Part shown: positions 11,290 through 43,797 of the stretch, piece by piece
Layout of the letters: every line of letters begins with the position of its first letter
How positions within the stretch are numbered: position 1 is the first letter of the stretch
Assembly (NCBI GenBank): GCA_003978465.1
Contig: QNZS01000042.1
Coordinates: forward strand, 1 to 44,240
Direction: 5' to 3'
Source: Sulfurimonas sp.
GTDB lineage: Bacteria; Campylobacterota; Campylobacteria; Campylobacterales; Sulfurimonadaceae
Length of the DNA stretch: 44,240 nucleotides
Notes under the pieces: model-generated
What the model was told of the DNA's origin: nothing
The model's input: the letters and a program-made list of their open reading frames with translations, nothing else
The model's database searches: none
Program-made: the position numbers and the translations under genes

Positions 11290-13146
11290 TTATGGTCTAT
11301 TATGCTGATAAAACTCTGCAAAGCCTACTTTTGTTAAAGGTTTAGAAAAAAGGAAACCTTGATACAAGTCACAACCAAGTTCTATTAAGTATTCTCTTTG
11401 ATACTCGTCTTCAACACCTTCAGCAACAGTAATAAGATTAAAGTTTTTAGCTATATCTATGATAGTTTTAACTAATGAGGCTTCTTTAGCACCTGAAATT
11501 TTAGCTACAAAAGATTGGTCAACTTTTAGCTCACAAATAGGAATTTCTCTAAGATAACTAAGAGATGAGTAACCAGTACCAAAATCATCCATAGAGAATG
11601 TAATGTTATACTTGCCTAAGGTGTTTATGACATCAATAAGGTTAGCTAAATTGTTTGCAGTGCTTGTTTCTGTTATCTCAAAAACAATACCAATTTTACA
11701 GTCATTATCAATATATTTTTCTAATAATTCAGTAATCATTTGAATAAAATCCTGATGCAGTAACTGTCGCATACTAATGTTTATAGATACTTGTTGAAGT
11801 CTTATAGATTTTTTTGACCACTCTTGTATAGTTTTAAATGACTCTTCTAAAACATATTTTCCAAGGTTTATTATACAACCAGTATTTTCAGCGATTGGAA
11901 TAAAAGTAGTTGGACTTATACTTCCTAATTCTTTATTATCCCATCTTACTAAAATTTCACATCCTAGAACTTTTTTATTTTTATCTACCTGTGGTTGATA
12001 GTTAAGTGTGATTTCATTTCTCTCAATCGCGAAGTGAAGCATTCTTTCAATATCTGACTTCTTCTCAACCACCTCACAAAGTTCTTCACTAAAAAGTATA
12101 ATTCCATTTCTACCACTATGTTTTGCTTCATACATAGCCATATCTGCTTCTTTTAAAAATGAACCTGCTTTAAGTTCCGACTTGTTCATAATACTTATTC
12201 CAATACTTGCACTAATGTAGAGGTAATTATCATCAATAATATAGGTAGCTTTGATTCTATTAAGTAGTTCTTTTGAAAAACTGTTTGCTGCCTTTAAACA
12301 CTTATCTTGAGTCTCATAAGAAGAACTTAAAATACAAAATTCATCCCCTCCTAAGCGTGCTGCTGTATTGTTGTTTATATCTGCTAGTTTTTTCATCCTT
12401 TTAGAGACCTCTACAAGTAACTCATCTCCAATATCATGTCCTAATGTATCATTAATAGTTTTAAAGTAATCAAGATCAATTAGAAGTAAATAGTTATATT
12501 TATTCTGATTCTGATTCTGATTAACAGAATTCTCCAGTAGCTCTAAAAAATAACGACGATTACCTAAACCTGTTAAATGATCATGATAGGATTGGTATCT
12601 ACTTTCGATAAGATAAGCATACATATTTTTTGCAGAATATAAAAGTATCCCAGTCAGAATAACTGTAAAACAAGCAATTAGGTAACTATAAATTTCTCCT
12701 ACTGCTAAAAGATATATTGTAATTGGTAGCATTAAAGTGATTACGGTAAGTATGACAAGTTTTTTTTGTGAGGCAAGAATACTTGAAGCTAATATTGTAC
12801 TTCCAAGCTGTGATGCAATCGCAATATAGTGAAGATGATGATTATCTTTTAAAACATAAACAAAAAATATAATGCTCCACAGAGAGAAGTAAGCGAACAT
12901 AAAAAATCGAACACGCTCAAGCCAAAAACCTTGTTCTTTTATACTTAGGGATGGAGAAAAGTCTTTATAGAGTTTATAGCCATAAAGTGAGGTCATTATC
13001 ATAAAAAGAAACCATACACTCTCTACTAAAACAGACCCATGTAGCCAACCTATCATAATATAACTAGAAGCAGTTCCTAAAAAAATTATAATGACTAATC
13101 GAATTTGCCTATGCATAAAGCTAAAAATACTTCTGTTCTCGTTCAT
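11290..13146 (-). CDS. Membrane GGDEF-EAL protein (c-di-GMP turnover)
   Basis: This 618-residue protein has an N-terminal block of six to seven membrane helices (about 16-180), followed by GGDEF and EAL domains for making and degrading cyclic di-GMP. The cyclase signature is intact (GGDEF, 266-270), but no RxxD inhibitory site precedes it (257-260 are INNN). The phosphodiesterase domain keeps EIL (397-399), NIS (456-458), FEITET (489-494), DDFGTG (520-525), KVDQSF (541-546) and EGVE (576-579), so it should be active. The membrane block probably senses a signal; it matches no sensor family I can name. AAGG lies about 10 bases before the ATG. It is divergent from the methyltransferase gene. Confidence 0.92.
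   Translation of the reverse strand: MNENRSIFSFMHRQIRLVIIIFLGTASSYIMIGWLHGSVLVESVWFLFMIMTSLYGYKLYKDFSPSLSIKEQGFWLERVRFFMFAYFSLWSIIFFVYVLKDNHHLHYIAIASQLGSTILASSILASQKKLVILTVITLMLPITIYLLAVGEIYSYLIACFTVILTGILLYSAKNMYAYLIESRYQSYHDHLTGLGNRRYFLELLENSVNQNQNQNKYNYLLLIDLDYFKTINDTLGHDIGDELLVEVSKRMKKLADINNNTAARLGGDEFCILSSSYETQDKCLKAANSFSKELLNRIKATYIIDDNYLYISASIGISIMNKSELKAGSFLKEADMAMYEAKHSGRNGIILFSEELCEVVEKKSDIERMLHFAIERNEITLNYQPQVDKNKKVLGCEILVRWDNKELGSISPTTFIPIAENTGCIINLGKYVLEESFKTIQEWSKKSIRLQQVSINISMRQLLHQDFIQMITELLEKYIDNDCKIGIVFEITETSTANNLANLIDVINTLGKYNITFSMDDFGTGYSSLSYLREIPICELKVDQSFVAKISGAKEASLVKTIIDIAKNFNLITVAEGVEDEYQREYLIELGCDLYQGFLFSKPLTKVGFAEFYQHNRP
12502..12522. repeat. Hexanucleotide repeat inside the GGDEF coding region
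   Basis: ATTCTG is repeated three and a half times, encoding the run NQNQNQNK at about 209-216 between the first helix and first strand of the GGDEF domain. Copy-number change would add or remove whole NQ pairs and keep the frame. Confidence 0.8.
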
Positions 13147-35961: not shown

Positions 35962-36275
35962 ATGTAGGGCTATATCATCAATCTTAAAAAGTCAAAGGTG
36001 GGGACTGAATAGTAACTATATTGTCTCATCATAGATTAAAAACTCTTTATAGGTTCTATGGTGCTAGACATGGAACTATCAACATAAAATCCAAGATAGA
36101 CTATGAGGTAGAACCAAGTGCTAAAAGTACTATTGGTAGACTTAAAGATGTCGTTCATATAGGTTTTTCATGTATAAATGATTTTAAACTTCTAAGACTT
36201 TGGCAAGACTTTATAGTATGTAAACAAACTATGGGATTGCACAACTTAAATGTCATGATGATTACCTCTGATTAA
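35962..36275 (+). pseudogene. Dead partial duplicate of recO
   Basis: This stretch copies the first 85 codons of the intact recO about 440 bases downstream. It begins ATG TAG GGC TAT ATC ATC AAT, against ATG CAA GGC TAT ATA ATC AAT in the intact gene, so codon 2 is now a stop; codons 10-27 hold more stops. From LYRFYGARHGTINI through DYEVEPSAK, RLKDVVHIGFS and LLRLWQDFI the reading frame is nearly identical in protein but differs at many third positions. After DFI the similarity ends. The open frame starting at 36021 is this remnant, not a gene. Confidence 0.85.
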
Positions 36276-36403: not shown

Positions 36404-37021
36404 ATGCAAGGCTATATAATCAATATTAACAAAGTTAAAGAAGAAGACCTTATTGTTACAATCCTCTCTGATGGAAGTTTAGAGACTCTATACCGCTTTT
36501 ATGGGGCACGTCATGGCACTATAAATATCGGTTTTAAAATAGATTATGAGATAGAGCCATCCGCAAAGACTACAATTCATAGACTTAAAGATGTTATTCA
36601 CATCGGTTATTCGTGGATAAATGATTATAAACTACTAAGATGTTGGCAAGACTTTATAGGACTTTTTTATAAACACCTCAAAGATGCCGAAGAACTTGGC
36701 TCTTTTTACTTTGAACTTTTTGAGAATGCTCAAGCACAATGGAATAAACAAAATCCTAAAAGAGTAGCTATAGAAGCTTATGTAAAACTCTTAGAATATG
36801 AAGGGCGTCTACATAAAGAGCATTACTGTTTTTTATGTTCTAAAGAGATAGAGGGTGATATCTCAATTATACGAGCCTTTTTACCTACACACTATAACTG
36901 TACACATACTTACGGTATCAAACGCTCTGCCTTAGATGAACTATATACGAATAAATCAAGCCTTTTTTTAAGTGATAAAGAGGTCGATAGACTTTGGAGT
37001 GTTTTGCTCGATGGTCTATAA
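36404..37021 (+). CDS. recO: Recombination mediator RecO, short epsilon type
   Basis: RecO loads RecA onto SSB-coated single strands together with RecR. The 205-residue protein matches the short RecO of Campylobacterota: an N-terminal OB-like part (MQGYIININKVKEEDLIVTI), the LYRFYGARHG turn, a helical middle, and a degenerate zinc site with C142-x2-C145 and C166. It is about 40 residues shorter than E. coli RecO. The stop overlaps the next start as TAATG. A broken copy of its 5' half lies upstream. Confidence 0.88.
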   Translation: MQGYIININKVKEEDLIVTILSDGSLETLYRFYGARHGTINIGFKIDYEIEPSAKTTIHRLKDVIHIGYSWINDYKLLRCWQDFIGLFYKHLKDAEELGSFYFELFENAQAQWNKQNPKRVAIEAYVKLLEYEGRLHKEHYCFLCSKEIEGDISIIRAFLPTHYNCTHTYGIKRSALDELYTNKSSLFLSDKEVDRLWSVLLDGL

Positions 37022-39614: not shown

Positions 39615-40169
39615 CTAAGAAGATTTCCTCCCTACAAGTGAAGCCACCATTGTATATTCACCACTTAAGTTTATATCTCTTCGTTCTTCATAGTATATAA
39701 TATCAAGTCCTATAAAGGAGTGTAGAAGCTCATTCTTTCTCAAAAGAAACTCAGGGTTTACAGGCTGAATGAAATCACCATGTGCTATGATAAATGTCTC
39801 AAAAATCACAAGACCACCTTCACGAAGTGCCTCTTTTATCTGAGGCATTAAGCGCCGTGAGAGAAAATTGATGTTGACGATAAGGTCATACTTGTTTATC
39901 TCTAAGTTATATGTATCTAAATCAACCTCAAACTTCTTGATACTTTTTGTATCTTTAATCTCTGAGAGTGCATAATCACTAATGTCAACAGCATCAACTA
40001 AAAATCCATTTTCTGCTATAAAGTGAGTGTTTCGTCCTGTTCCACATGCGATATCTAAAGCTTCACCAACTTGAGCCTCATTAATATACTTTTGTAGTAG
40101 TGGCTCTACATTATGTCGCATTGGTTTTTCAACATGGCGTTTGTTCCAACGTTCTTTATCTTCTATCAT
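39615..40169 (-). CDS. TehB-like class I SAM-dependent methyltransferase
   Basis: This 184-residue methyltransferase has motif I ALDIACGTGRNTHFIAE (about 37-53), an acidic motif II (VDAVDIS), YDLIVNINFLSRRL (motif IV) and GGLVIFETFI. The order and length resemble TehB and other small-molecule thiol or chalcogen methyltransferases. The substrate is not identifiable. It starts 15 codons before the first helix with no partner gene. About 70 bases separate its stop from the selO start. Confidence 0.83.
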   Translation of the reverse strand: MIEDKERWNKRHVEKPMRHNVEPLLQKYINEAQVGEALDIACGTGRNTHFIAENGFLVDAVDISDYALSEIKDTKSIKKFEVDLDTYNLEINKYDLIVNINFLSRRLMPQIKEALREGGLVIFETFIIAHGDFIQPVNPEFLLRKNELLHSFIGLDIIYYEERRDINLSGEYTMVASLVGRKSS

Positions 40170-40634: not shown

Positions 40635-41774
40635 TTAACTCAACCTACTTCTATATGTTTCATATTCAAACTCTTTAACAACTTCTATAGTGCCATCTAA
40701 TCGTTTTAGAACTAAGGATGGAAGTTTTATACCATTAAATGTAGTATTTTTCACAAATGTATAATGTATTTGATCTTCAAAGATTAGCTTATCCCCTACT
40801 TTTAAAGGTTCATCAAAAGAATAATCTCCCATAATGTCACCGGCGAGACAAGTGTTTCCACCTAAGCGATAGGTGTATTTTTTCTCGTTTGTAACTCCAG
40901 CATTTCTTACTTCTGCTCGATAAGGCATAGCTAAAGTATCTGGCATATGTGCTTCTGCTGAAGTATCAAGAATGGCGATATTCATTCCATTCTCAAAAAT
41001 ATCTAAAACAGTAGATACTAAATAGCCACTTTCCCAGCCAACTGCTTCACCTGGTTCTAAATAGATATCTATTTGGTATTTCAAATGAAACTCTTTGATT
41101 ATACAAACTAATCTCTCTATATCATAACCTTTTTTAGTTATGTGATGCCCCCCACCAAAATTTATATATTTTAAATTTTTAAAATATATACTAAAATCTC
41201 TTTCAAAAGCAAATAATACTTCTTCTAAGGCATCAACACCTTGTTCACATAAGGCATGAAAGTTAAGTCCATCTAAGCTACTTAAGGTACTTTCATCGAT
41301 ATTTTTGAGTGTTGTACCTAAACGAGAGTAGAGTCCACAAGGGTTGTAAATATCTTTTGGAGAGGCTGACACTTCAGGGTTTATCCGTAAAGAAGTATGA
41401 ATATTTGGATTAATTTTTTTGGCTTTTAAAAGAAATTTGTTTAATTGGTTCGGAGAATTAAATACTATATGATTTGAGATTTTCGCTATCTCCTCAATCT
41501 CTTCTTCTTTAAATGCAGGTGAATATGTGTGGATTTCTGCTTGTGCATTATGGCAATTAAACTCTTCTTTTGCGAGTCTGGCCTCATATAAACCACTTGC
41601 CGTACAACCCTTAAGATACTTAGAAACTAAAGAAAATGTAGAAAACATTGCAAAACCCTTTAGTGCTAAAATTATTTTAGCACCACTGCGTTTTTGGATA
41701 TCATCAAGTATTTTAAGGTTATTTTCTAATAATCTCTCATCACAAAGATAATATGGTGTTCTTATATTTTCCAT
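40635..41774 (-). CDS. nspC: Carboxynorspermidine/carboxyspermidine decarboxylase
   Basis: NspC is a PLP enzyme of the alanine-racemase fold that decarboxylates carboxynorspermidine or carboxyspermidine, the last step of the alternative polyamine route used by Campylobacterota and vibrios. The 379 residues show the PLP Lys K39 in ALKGFAMFS, the glycine loop FGGGHHITKKGYD, EPGEAVGW and the second active-site element C309 in NTCLAGD. It is the last of three genes in the operon with the dehydrogenase and an HDOD gene. Confidence 0.94.
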   Translation of the reverse strand: MENIRTPYYLCDERLLENNLKILDDIQKRSGAKIILALKGFAMFSTFSLVSKYLKGCTASGLYEARLAKEEFNCHNAQAEIHTYSPAFKEEEIEEIAKISNHIVFNSPNQLNKFLLKAKKINPNIHTSLRINPEVSASPKDIYNPCGLYSRLGTTLKNIDESTLSSLDGLNFHALCEQGVDALEEVLFAFERDFSIYFKNLKYINFGGGHHITKKGYDIERLVCIIKEFHLKYQIDIYLEPGEAVGWESGYLVSTVLDIFENGMNIAILDTSAEAHMPDTLAMPYRAEVRNAGVTNEKKYTYRLGGNTCLAGDIMGDYSFDEPLKVGDKLIFEDQIHYTFVKNTTFNGIKLPSLVLKRLDGTIEVVKEFEYETYRSRLS

Positions 41775-41777
41775 GAC

Positions 41778-42611
41778 TCAGGAGTGGTTCTTTAGATAAG
41801 TTTCTTTTATACTTATACAAACACTTTTAAAGTGTACAACATCTAGACCTATCTCAGAGACTATTTCAGCAGCTTCATTGATAGAGTCTTCTGTGAAAAT
41901 ACTTGATACATTTACTGCCGTTCGTACAGCATCAAGAATATCTATATAGTGACTTATTATTGGTGATACACCATGTTCGAAGTCTAAACCCTTAAGTATA
42001 TCAACATACAGTTGATCTAAATGCCAGTGTTCAAATAAAAGACCACTTATATAGTATGAAGATGTACCAAAAAGAGAGTTTTCATATACTGAAATATTTA
42101 CTGCATTTTTAATTCCATTAATAAACTCTTTTATAGTCGTCTCATGTACTACTTCTTGTGCGACTACAAGTTTTCCAGACTCCATTATTAACGCAAGTGG
42201 AGTTAAAATCTGGGCATCGTGTAAATCAACTTTTGAATACCATTTATTCATAAGAATACACTGCATATGAGATATATCGTTAAACTTAGTATTCGAGAGT
42301 CTATATGGTCTTAAATTTGCTACTATCGAGAATTCTATTGAATAATACACTATGAAACCATACATTGCATGTATCCCACAAAGATTAATCGCTTGAGAAA
42401 TAGAAGTAATTTGTTCGGGAAAACAATACAAGGGAGAATTAATCATCTTGAGTATATTTAGAGAGAGCACAGCATCTCTCTCTATAGCTTCTACTAATAT
42501 GATGATATTCACATTTTCAGCTCCATCTTCGAACATTTTTCTAATCATCTGTGTAGTATCTAGAAGTGGTGCTAAAGCATTTATATGGTTAACTATACTT
42601 CTAGAATTCAT
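41778..42611 (-). CDS. HDOD-domain protein
   Basis: This 277-residue protein has an HDOD domain (about 15-200), a helical relative of HD phosphohydrolases that lacks the metal-binding HD pair. Typical segments are VEAIERDAVLSLNILKMINSP and ITSISQAINLCGIHAMYGFI. HDOD proteins act in signalling, often linked to c-di-GMP or chemotaxis, without known enzymatic activity. It lies between the two norspermidine genes with gaps of one and three bases, so it is cotranscribed with them. There is no receiver or GGDEF/EAL domain attached. Confidence 0.85.
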   Translation of the reverse strand: MNSRSIVNHINALAPLLDTTQMIRKMFEDGAENVNIIILVEAIERDAVLSLNILKMINSPLYCFPEQITSISQAINLCGIHAMYGFIVYYSIEFSIVANLRPYRLSNTKFNDISHMQCILMNKWYSKVDLHDAQILTPLALIMESGKLVVAQEVVHETTIKEFINGIKNAVNISVYENSLFGTSSYYISGLLFEHWHLDQLYVDILKGLDFEHGVSPIISHYIDILDAVRTAVNVSSIFTEDSINEAAEIVSEIGLDVVHFKSVCISIKETYLKNHS

Positions 42612-42612
42612 A

Positions 42613-43797
42613 TTAAACCTCTAACTCTTTTAATTTCCAAGGTAAACCTTGACTCACTAACTCTTGCATAAATGGATCAGGGTCAAACTCTTCCATATTA
42701 AAGACACCCAAACCGCTCCACTTACCTTCTAACATGAGTTTTGCACCTATCATTGCCGGAACTCCTGTTGTGTATGATATTGCTTGAGAGTTGACTTCTT
42801 TATAACATTTTTGATGATCACTTACTTGGTAGATATAAATGCGCTTGCGTTTACCATTTTTCATCCCAGTTACTACTACACCAATATTTGTCTTACCCTT
42901 AGTACGTTTACCAAGAGTTGATGGATTTGGAAGCAGTGTTTTAAGTAGTTCAATAGGTATAATCTTCTGTCCCTTATGCTCTACCTCTTTAATACCAAGC
43001 ATTCCAATATTTTTAAGTACATGCATATGGTCTAGGTATGCTTTTGTAAAAGTCATATAAAACTTAATCTGCTTTAAGCCTTTGATATTTTTAGTAAGTG
43101 ATTCCATCTCTTCATGGTACATGAGATATGAATCTCTCTTCCCTATCTCAGGATAGTCCCAAACTTTTTTCATCTGTAAAGGTTCTGTTTCAAACCAACG
43201 TCCACCATCCCAGTAACGCCCTTTTGCTGAAACCTCACGTAAGTTTATCTCAGGATTAAAGTTTGTTGCGAAAATATAACCATTATTTCCATCATTACAA
43301 TCATAAATATCTATGGTATCAATGGTATCAAAGTAATGTTTTTGAGCAAATGCACAAAACACATTTGTAACACCAGGATCAAATCCAGAGCCTAAGAGTC
43401 CCATTATTCCGGCTTCTTTGAACTTCTCATCCCTAGCCCACTGTAATTTATACTCAAACTTTGCCTCATCCGGATGCTCATAGTTTGCAGTGTCAAGATA
43501 CGGTGTTTTAGTAGCTATACATGCATCCATAATAGTTAAATCCTGATATGGGAGTGCTACATTGATAACGATATCAGCATCTATTTTCTCTATAAGTTTA
43601 ATAACATCACCTGTAATATCAGCATCAAGTTGTGTAACAAATATCTCTGCATCAGGTAGTTCTTTTTTTATGTTTATACAAGATTCAATATTTCTACTTG
43701 CTAAAACTATTCTACCAAATACTCCTGCATTTTGAACACATTTATGTACTACAACACGACCAACTCCACCTGCACCAATTATTAATGTTGTTTTCAT
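42613..43797 (-). CDS. Carboxynorspermidine/carboxyspermidine dehydrogenase
   Basis: This is a saccharopine-dehydrogenase-like enzyme (CANSDH/CASDH) that couples aspartate semialdehyde with diaminopropane or putrescine using NADPH. From the chosen start the protein has 394 residues: the Rossmann motif IIGAGGVGR (6-14), DADIVINVALPYQDL, LDTANYEHPDE and the GSGFDPGVTNVF block shared with the Lys1/LYS9 family. AGGTG lies 11 bases before the ATG at 43797. An in-frame ATG at 43869 would add 24 atypical residues. It is first in the operon that ends with nspC. Confidence 0.92.
   Translation of the reverse strand: MKTTLIIGAGGVGRVVVHKCVQNAGVFGRIVLASRNIESCINIKKELPDAEIFVTQLDADITGDVIKLIEKIDADIVINVALPYQDLTIMDACIATKTPYLDTANYEHPDEAKFEYKLQWARDEKFKEAGIMGLLGSGFDPGVTNVFCAFAQKHYFDTIDTIDIYDCNDGNNGYIFATNFNPEINLREVSAKGRYWDGGRWFETEPLQMKKVWDYPEIGKRDSYLMYHEEMESLTKNIKGLKQIKFYMTFTKAYLDHMHVLKNIGMLGIKEVEHKGQKIIPIELLKTLLPNPSTLGKRTKGKTNIGVVVTGMKNGKRKRIYIYQVSDHQKCYKEVNSQAISYTTGVPAMIGAKLMLEGKWSGLGVFNMEEFDPDPFMQELVSQGLPWKLKELEV

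Follow-up and report, generated by a model that had tools for sequence, protein, structure and literature searches.

An HDOD gene of the Cj0248 kind between the carboxy(nor)spermidine dehydrogenase and decarboxylase genes of Sulfurimonas: possibly an accessory gene within a mixed operon

HDOD domains are known as non-enzymatic domains. In Vibrio, norspermidine is connected to c-di-GMP through the NspS/MbaA circuit. According to passages from two papers, motility is changed in mutants of Campylobacter jejuni Cj0248, flagellar genes are under the control of the HDOD protein GsmR, and SadB, which combines a YbaK with an HDOD domain, binds c-di-GMP and regulates flagella (PMC11004494, PMC6543031). 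A transcript table from a third paper lists Cj0248 among the flagellar genes bound by CsrA (PMC4894983). The pathway of C. jejuni that runs via carboxy(nor)spermidine dehydrogenase (CASDH) and decarboxylase (CASDC) is cited, in an excerpt of a fourth, as a route to spermidine (PMC10413350). The open-licence literature yielded no publication linking HDOD proteins to carboxynorspermidine or to Sulfurimonas, and nothing relevant on HDOD and polyamines as far as titles and abstracts tell.

The locus described here lies in a 44,240-nucleotide stretch of Sulfurimonas sp. DNA (GCA_003978465.1, contig QNZS01000042.1), which was analysed as a whole and is called the window. On its minus strand, the CASDH gene (43797..42613, 394 aa, ATG at 43797) is followed after one base by an HDOD gene (42611..41778, 277 aa) and, after another three bases, by nspC, encoding carboxy(nor)spermidine decarboxylase (41774..40635, 379 aa). 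CASDH carries the saccharopine-dehydrogenase domains PF16653 and PF03435 and scores 388.5 bits against NCBIfam NF043000 (carboxynorspermidine synthase), under the curated cut-off of 800; NspC matches TIGR01047 with 520.2 bits (cut-off 409). A gene for a TehB-like SAM-dependent methyltransferase (39615..40169, minus strand, PF03848) is of a kind that recurs downstream in the corresponding blocks of relatives. The first-pass annotation had placed an HDOD gene between two biosynthesis genes with gaps of one and three bases, and this description stands: the 277-aa frame, its PF08668 match and the CASDH and nspC neighbours were all confirmed. The annotation was also right that the window encodes a GGDEF-EAL protein, which was found at 11290-13146 and has several short hydrophobic stretches within its first 180 residues. 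The link drawn from it to the HDOD gene fared worse, as the two lie about 27 kb apart and nothing was found that connects them. A scan of both strands for promoters, by a sigma-70 consensus that may not suit this group, and for terminators gave 12 promoter-like sites against 19.6 in shuffled sequence, none above chance, and a single terminator-like site against 1.6, likewise not above chance. Elsewhere in the window, a second copy of the start of recO, truncated and broken by a stop (35988-36216), stands just upstream of the intact gene and is 72% identical to it over 229 bases (36431-36659).

The HDOD gene product matches PF08668 over residues 15-205 (66.8 bits, cut-off 22.9), which is its sole Pfam match; the NCBIfam scan assigned it to no family. 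An AlphaFold2 model built with 45 sequences reaches a mean pLDDT of 92 and has the helical fold of the HD superfamily, the first 12 Foldseek hits representing eight solved structures, most of which are named as HDOD or signal-transduction proteins. The best solved structural match is C. jejuni Cj0248 (PDB 1vqr, Z 25.0), whose overlay spans residues 1-271 and covers 267 of the 277 residues with an rmsd of 3.3; MmoQ (Z 21.4) and SadB (9qzk, Z 13.6) score lower. Cj0248 is also the best match by sequence in the PDB, with a profile E-value of 7e-35. All 47 aligned HDOD sequences from the position between CASDH and nspC, hereafter the slot, read ME at residues 143-144, which we take, on our own reading, to be the positions where HD enzymes carry His-Asp. 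The earlier statement that the protein has no enzyme activity agrees with known HDOD domains, and its support from the ME residues depends on that assumed equivalence. The predicted product would be a signalling or scaffold protein that is wholly helical and lacks enzyme activity.

The designation of the locus as a norspermidine operon could not be upheld. Diaminobutyrate aminotransferase (TIGR00709) was found above the cut-off of 401.6 bits in none of 41 genomes of the window's genus, the window's own genome being 82% complete; the best score was 159.6, 40 of the 41 have weak matches only, and one of 14 control genomes exceeded the cut-off. Arginine decarboxylase (speA) passes its cut-off in 35 of the 41, including the window genome, which therefore holds both an nspC-type decarboxylase and the putrescine route. 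Because the aminotransferase is absent above the cut-off and arginine decarboxylase is widespread, spermidine is the likely product, and the conversion of putrescine to spermidine is the probable use of CASDH and NspC here, judged from gene content. Norspermidine signalling was set aside on the same two counts.

CASDH and nspC are common in the family to which the window belongs: of 131 genomes, 121 have CASDH, 125 have nspC and 111 have an HDOD match among the matches listed. When the match tables were compared by place, an orthologous HDOD gene occupied the slot in 21 of the 40 window-genus genomes and in at least 28 of the 131 family genomes, the others being four of genus g2 and three of genus g4; in the latter three, further genes stand between HDOD and nspC. 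CASDH directly adjoins nspC, with no HDOD gene in the block, in 14 of the 40 genus genomes. Three more have an odd gap, holding a DUF6629-like gene (G333), an HDOD remnant (G345) or a gene on the opposite strand (G347), and two are undecided, one lacking a CASDH match (G063) and one being split over contigs (G353). Genome G063 is 1.3 Mb in size, is listed as 99% complete and has nspC. In the wider order, HDOD matches occur in 184 and CASDH matches in 230 of 248 genomes. None of the 107 HDOD matches listed from outside the family lies within 10 kb of a listed CASDH; 75 of these have a listed CASDH in the same genome and 22 on the same contig.

The content of the slot was read at 20 loci, which cover part of the other genera. 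In genus g77 (L093-L096) it is a Methyltransf_23 protein, and in G333 and genus g4 (L084, L087-L089, L091, L092) a DUF6629 membrane protein; in each case one protein was scanned and the rest were assigned by likeness. In genus g5, a convergent gene adjoins CASDH (L097 1710-2942 and L098 1757-2983, with CASDH read forward), which from its sequence we presume to encode an EAL-HDOD-like protein.

A search of named genomes returned 58 loci: 51 that look like Campylobacterota (L104-L154) and seven weak matches in other bacteria. Both CASDH and nspC are present at 43 of the 51, one of them at four and neither at four (L119, L147, L148, L152); as these loci were picked for their resemblance to slot HDODs and overlap in part with the genomes of the first set, 43 of 51 is a biased rate. 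The closest named relatives are the Sulfurimonas SAG-AH-194 genomes, with CASDH 94-95%, nspC 84-85% and HDOD 69-70% identical to those of the window. The gaps between CASDH and HDOD in relatives are mostly -1 to 15 bases and are short across divergent species. The layout is more than chance, because this arrangement, short gaps included, is found repeatedly within the genus, and at genus level the synteny is genuine. The expectation that an HDOD gene would be conserved between CASDH and nspC thus holds for about half of the window genus and finds no counterpart near CASDH among the listed HDODs outside the family. Absence of the gene from the operon in most relatives, which the first-pass annotation had regarded as decisive against its proposal, is what the family presents, with the gene found in the slot in at least 28 of 131 genomes, while within the genus presence and absence are about even.

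The HDOD gene and the two enzymes part in both directions. In genome G345, whose CASDH is 95% identical to that of the window, the slot holds only an open frame of 76 aa (L085 1732-1962; also L188). It consists of the first 34 or so and the last 44 residues of the HDOD protein, joined by an in-frame internal deletion, with the spacing to both neighbours kept; translation through the slot perhaps matters for nspC. Conversely, Sulfurimonas AH-709-D16 (L119) carries two HDOD genes between the MFS-PlsC (transporter/acyltransferase) gene and the methyltransferase gene, at the position of CASDH and nspC. Neither enzyme was found in this genome at E 1e-30; the assembly may be incomplete, and the locus is continuous. 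AH-709-D16 has FlhA. In G335, an HDOD gene of the slot clade, belonging to its alpha sub-clade, is found outside the slot, where it follows a GGDEF gene with a single base between them (L207 3077-5465); this pair stands between lptE and an M23 peptidase/bactofilin group. A suspected decay of the slot HDOD in UBA6014 (L149) was discarded, since its frame breaks beside an ambiguous base and is as likely an assembly matter. The occurrence of a GGDEF gene next to the block was also dropped, the motif being seen at three of the 51 loci (L109, L113, L135), a frequency judged to be near chance. With enzymes lacking HDOD in many genomes and HDODs lacking enzymes in AH-709-D16, the proposed polyamine-linked HDOD regulator loses ground. 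The case warns that a tidy operon can mislead as to function: across a genus, a gene can lie a single base away from that of a biosynthetic enzyme and yet be separable from it both ways.

The surroundings of the slot are mixed. Of the 51 loci, many of which end too early to show the flanking genes, 35 include MFS-PlsC, 24 diacylglycerol kinase, 16 patatin and 36 the methyltransferase. All 14 genus genomes without a slot HDOD have the same MFS-PlsC gene upstream. From this and the varied content it follows that the HDOD gene is one component among several in a mixed block and that its absence is specific. Other HDOD genes of the genus adjoin unrelated housekeeping genes (rnr-holA, polA), so neighbours of this sort are usual for them.

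A phylogeny of 97 HDODs places the slot genes in one clade of 50 rows with a support of 100, comprising 47 slot genes, the two of AH-709-D16 and the off-slot copy of G335; a careful tree of 54 rows recovers the slot clade with a support of 100/99. Within it, alpha unites 19 slot rows and the G335 copy (97/89). The window gene is not part of alpha. A clade of the 19 slot rows without the G335 copy was rejected (p-AU 0.018), the copy falling inside, and a sister clade "beta" was abandoned, as the non-alpha genes form no clade. Three tandem loci combine the two kinds (G125, L120, L119), each with an alpha gene in front and a non-alpha gene behind it; L136 carries a tandem of two alpha genes. On a tree of CASDH and NspC with 75 rows (44 with HDOD, 30 without, one remnant), the presence of HDOD requires 18 changes, at least 12 of them forced by well supported branches, in which loss, gain and exchange are not separable. 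The alpha genes of genus g4 nest among those of the window genus, which may reflect exchange. In our reading, a tandem pair of long standing has suffered many losses, so that genomes keep one, both or neither, and the counts are also compatible with gain or exchange. If so, species with one, two or no copies offer natural comparisons. Horizontal insertion into the window genome alone was discounted, since HDODs from the slots of many species group in a single clade, and a plasmid origin likewise, given just three weak matches to plasmids of the Arcobacter group at 27% identity.

Selection on the gene is purifying. Comparing the window HDOD pairwise with four relatives gives dN/dS (NG86) values of 0.12-0.17, and comparing the relatives with one another gives 0.07-0.12, with dS of about 1 or above and hence near saturation; with dS again near saturation, CASDH gives 0.04-0.07 and nspC 0.08-0.17. 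Among 49 slot sequences, the window HDOD shows the most deviations at conserved columns (six of 59), and its branch measures 0.29 against 0.08-0.13 in its sisters. The protein is constrained, perhaps less so than in relatives.

HDODs of the Cj0248 kind keep company with flagella. Among the matches listed for the 131 family genomes, HDOD and FlhA occur together in 105, HDOD alone in six, FlhA alone in one and neither in 19 (Fisher p 1e-16, a value inflated by kinship); put the other way, 19 of the 20 genomes without an HDOD match also lack FlhA. The 99 genomes that are at least 90% complete divide in the same way (85 with both, two with HDOD only, one with FlhA only, 11 with neither). On a tree of 54 chosen genomes, all four supported independent contrasts agree in pairing HDOD with FlhA (p 0.125). 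FlhA is present in 28 of 28 family genomes with a slot HDOD, compared with 78 of the 103 others, uncorrected for kinship, and in all 17 further named slot-HDOD records tested. As 39 of the 40 genus genomes have FlhA, a comparison of the slot copy with FlhA has no power within the genus, and the correlation concerns the HDOD class. FlhA without any listed HDOD match occurs in a single family genome, G049, in which CASDH directly adjoins nspC. The co-occurrence, with only seven mixed cases among the 131 genomes, is a testable lead.

The preferred reading, given a probability of roughly 0.52, is that the gene encodes a motility or signalling HDOD of the Cj0248 type that has long been a dispensable part of a mixed operon and is not a controller of polyamine synthesis. 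By analogy, HDODs of this kind in Campylobacterota would most likely serve flagella or motility control, perhaps as c-di-GMP-linked effectors. In Sulfurimonas, a copy of it, at some stage doubled in tandem, may have been taken as an accessory gene into a mixed housekeeping block, ordered as lysophospholipid transporter/acyltransferase, diacylglycerol kinase, sometimes patatin lipase, CASDH, HDOD, nspC and methyltransferase. It would be made with the spermidine enzymes through a shared message, not as their controller, and would have been lost, kept singly or kept paired many times. Against this reading, the short CASDH-HDOD gaps across divergent species could reflect selection to be expressed together with the polyamine enzymes; moreover, the motility roles come from other species, and no flagellar gene was found in the neighbourhoods examined. 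The same gaps, the position between the enzymes, the presence of both at most of the relatives' loci (43 of 51) and the rise of tandem copies inside the slot would suit a dedicated regulator that binds CASDH, NspC or a polyamine or nucleotide, and either tunes spermidine synthesis or reports spermidine to motility or biofilm. Such a role is nevertheless considered improbable. It is weakened by the separability both ways, the mixed block with flanking genes that are not polyamine genes, and the lack of a precursor route to norspermidine: in 14 of the 40 genomes of the genus the enzymes and the block are kept without HDOD, AH-709-D16 keeps HDODs without either enzyme, a clade member stands elsewhere behind a GGDEF gene (G335), and the open-licence literature offers no HDOD-polyamine link.

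A somewhat unlikely alternative is that the protein is a pure passenger, or acts in c-di-GMP or other signalling unrelated to motility, and shares with its neighbours the message alone. The unrelated genes beside other HDODs of the genus, the GGDEF gene one base ahead of a slot-clade member and the acceptance of other genes by the slot (DUF6629, methyltransferase) are as this would predict, whereas the co-occurrence with FlhA and the excerpted literature on Cj0248, GsmR and SadB favour a part in motility. In the window lineage, the gene might also be on its way out, still open and under weakened constraint, as in the neighbour G345, where only the ends of the gene are left. The conserved-column changes, the raised dN/dS and the long branch point in this direction; a dN/dS far below 1, albeit with dS near saturation, and the confident model do not, and as the only HDOD found in a flagellated genome that is 82% complete, it may be the one in use. 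We regard such an exit as quite improbable. An equally distant prospect is that an early HDOD pair, alpha first and the other second, did joint flagellar or c-di-GMP work and was translated between CASDH and NspC, tying swimming to the capacity for spermidine. If this were true, the operon would be a motility-polyamine switch, taken apart in different ways from species to species.

Among known systems, the Vibrio NspS/MbaA circuit shares with the locus an NspC-type enzyme and, elsewhere in the window, a GGDEF-EAL protein; that protein is 27 kb away, and none of the 41 genus genomes has diaminobutyrate aminotransferase above the cut-off. The spermidine pathway of CASDH and CASDC (NspC) is represented by both enzymes, which are adjacent or nearly so, but here the slot holds an extra HDOD gene and the block includes lipid and methyltransferase genes. 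SadB of Pseudomonas is likewise a non-catalytic signalling protein with the HDOD fold; it differs in an additional N-terminal YbaK-like domain, and its c-di-GMP binding is not established for the HDOD domain itself. Cj0248 has the same single HDOD domain and C-terminal helices over the whole length, though with about 20% identity to the window HDOD in the structural alignment. A Cj0248-type HDOD beside CASDH or nspC has been seen only in the Sulfurimonas family.
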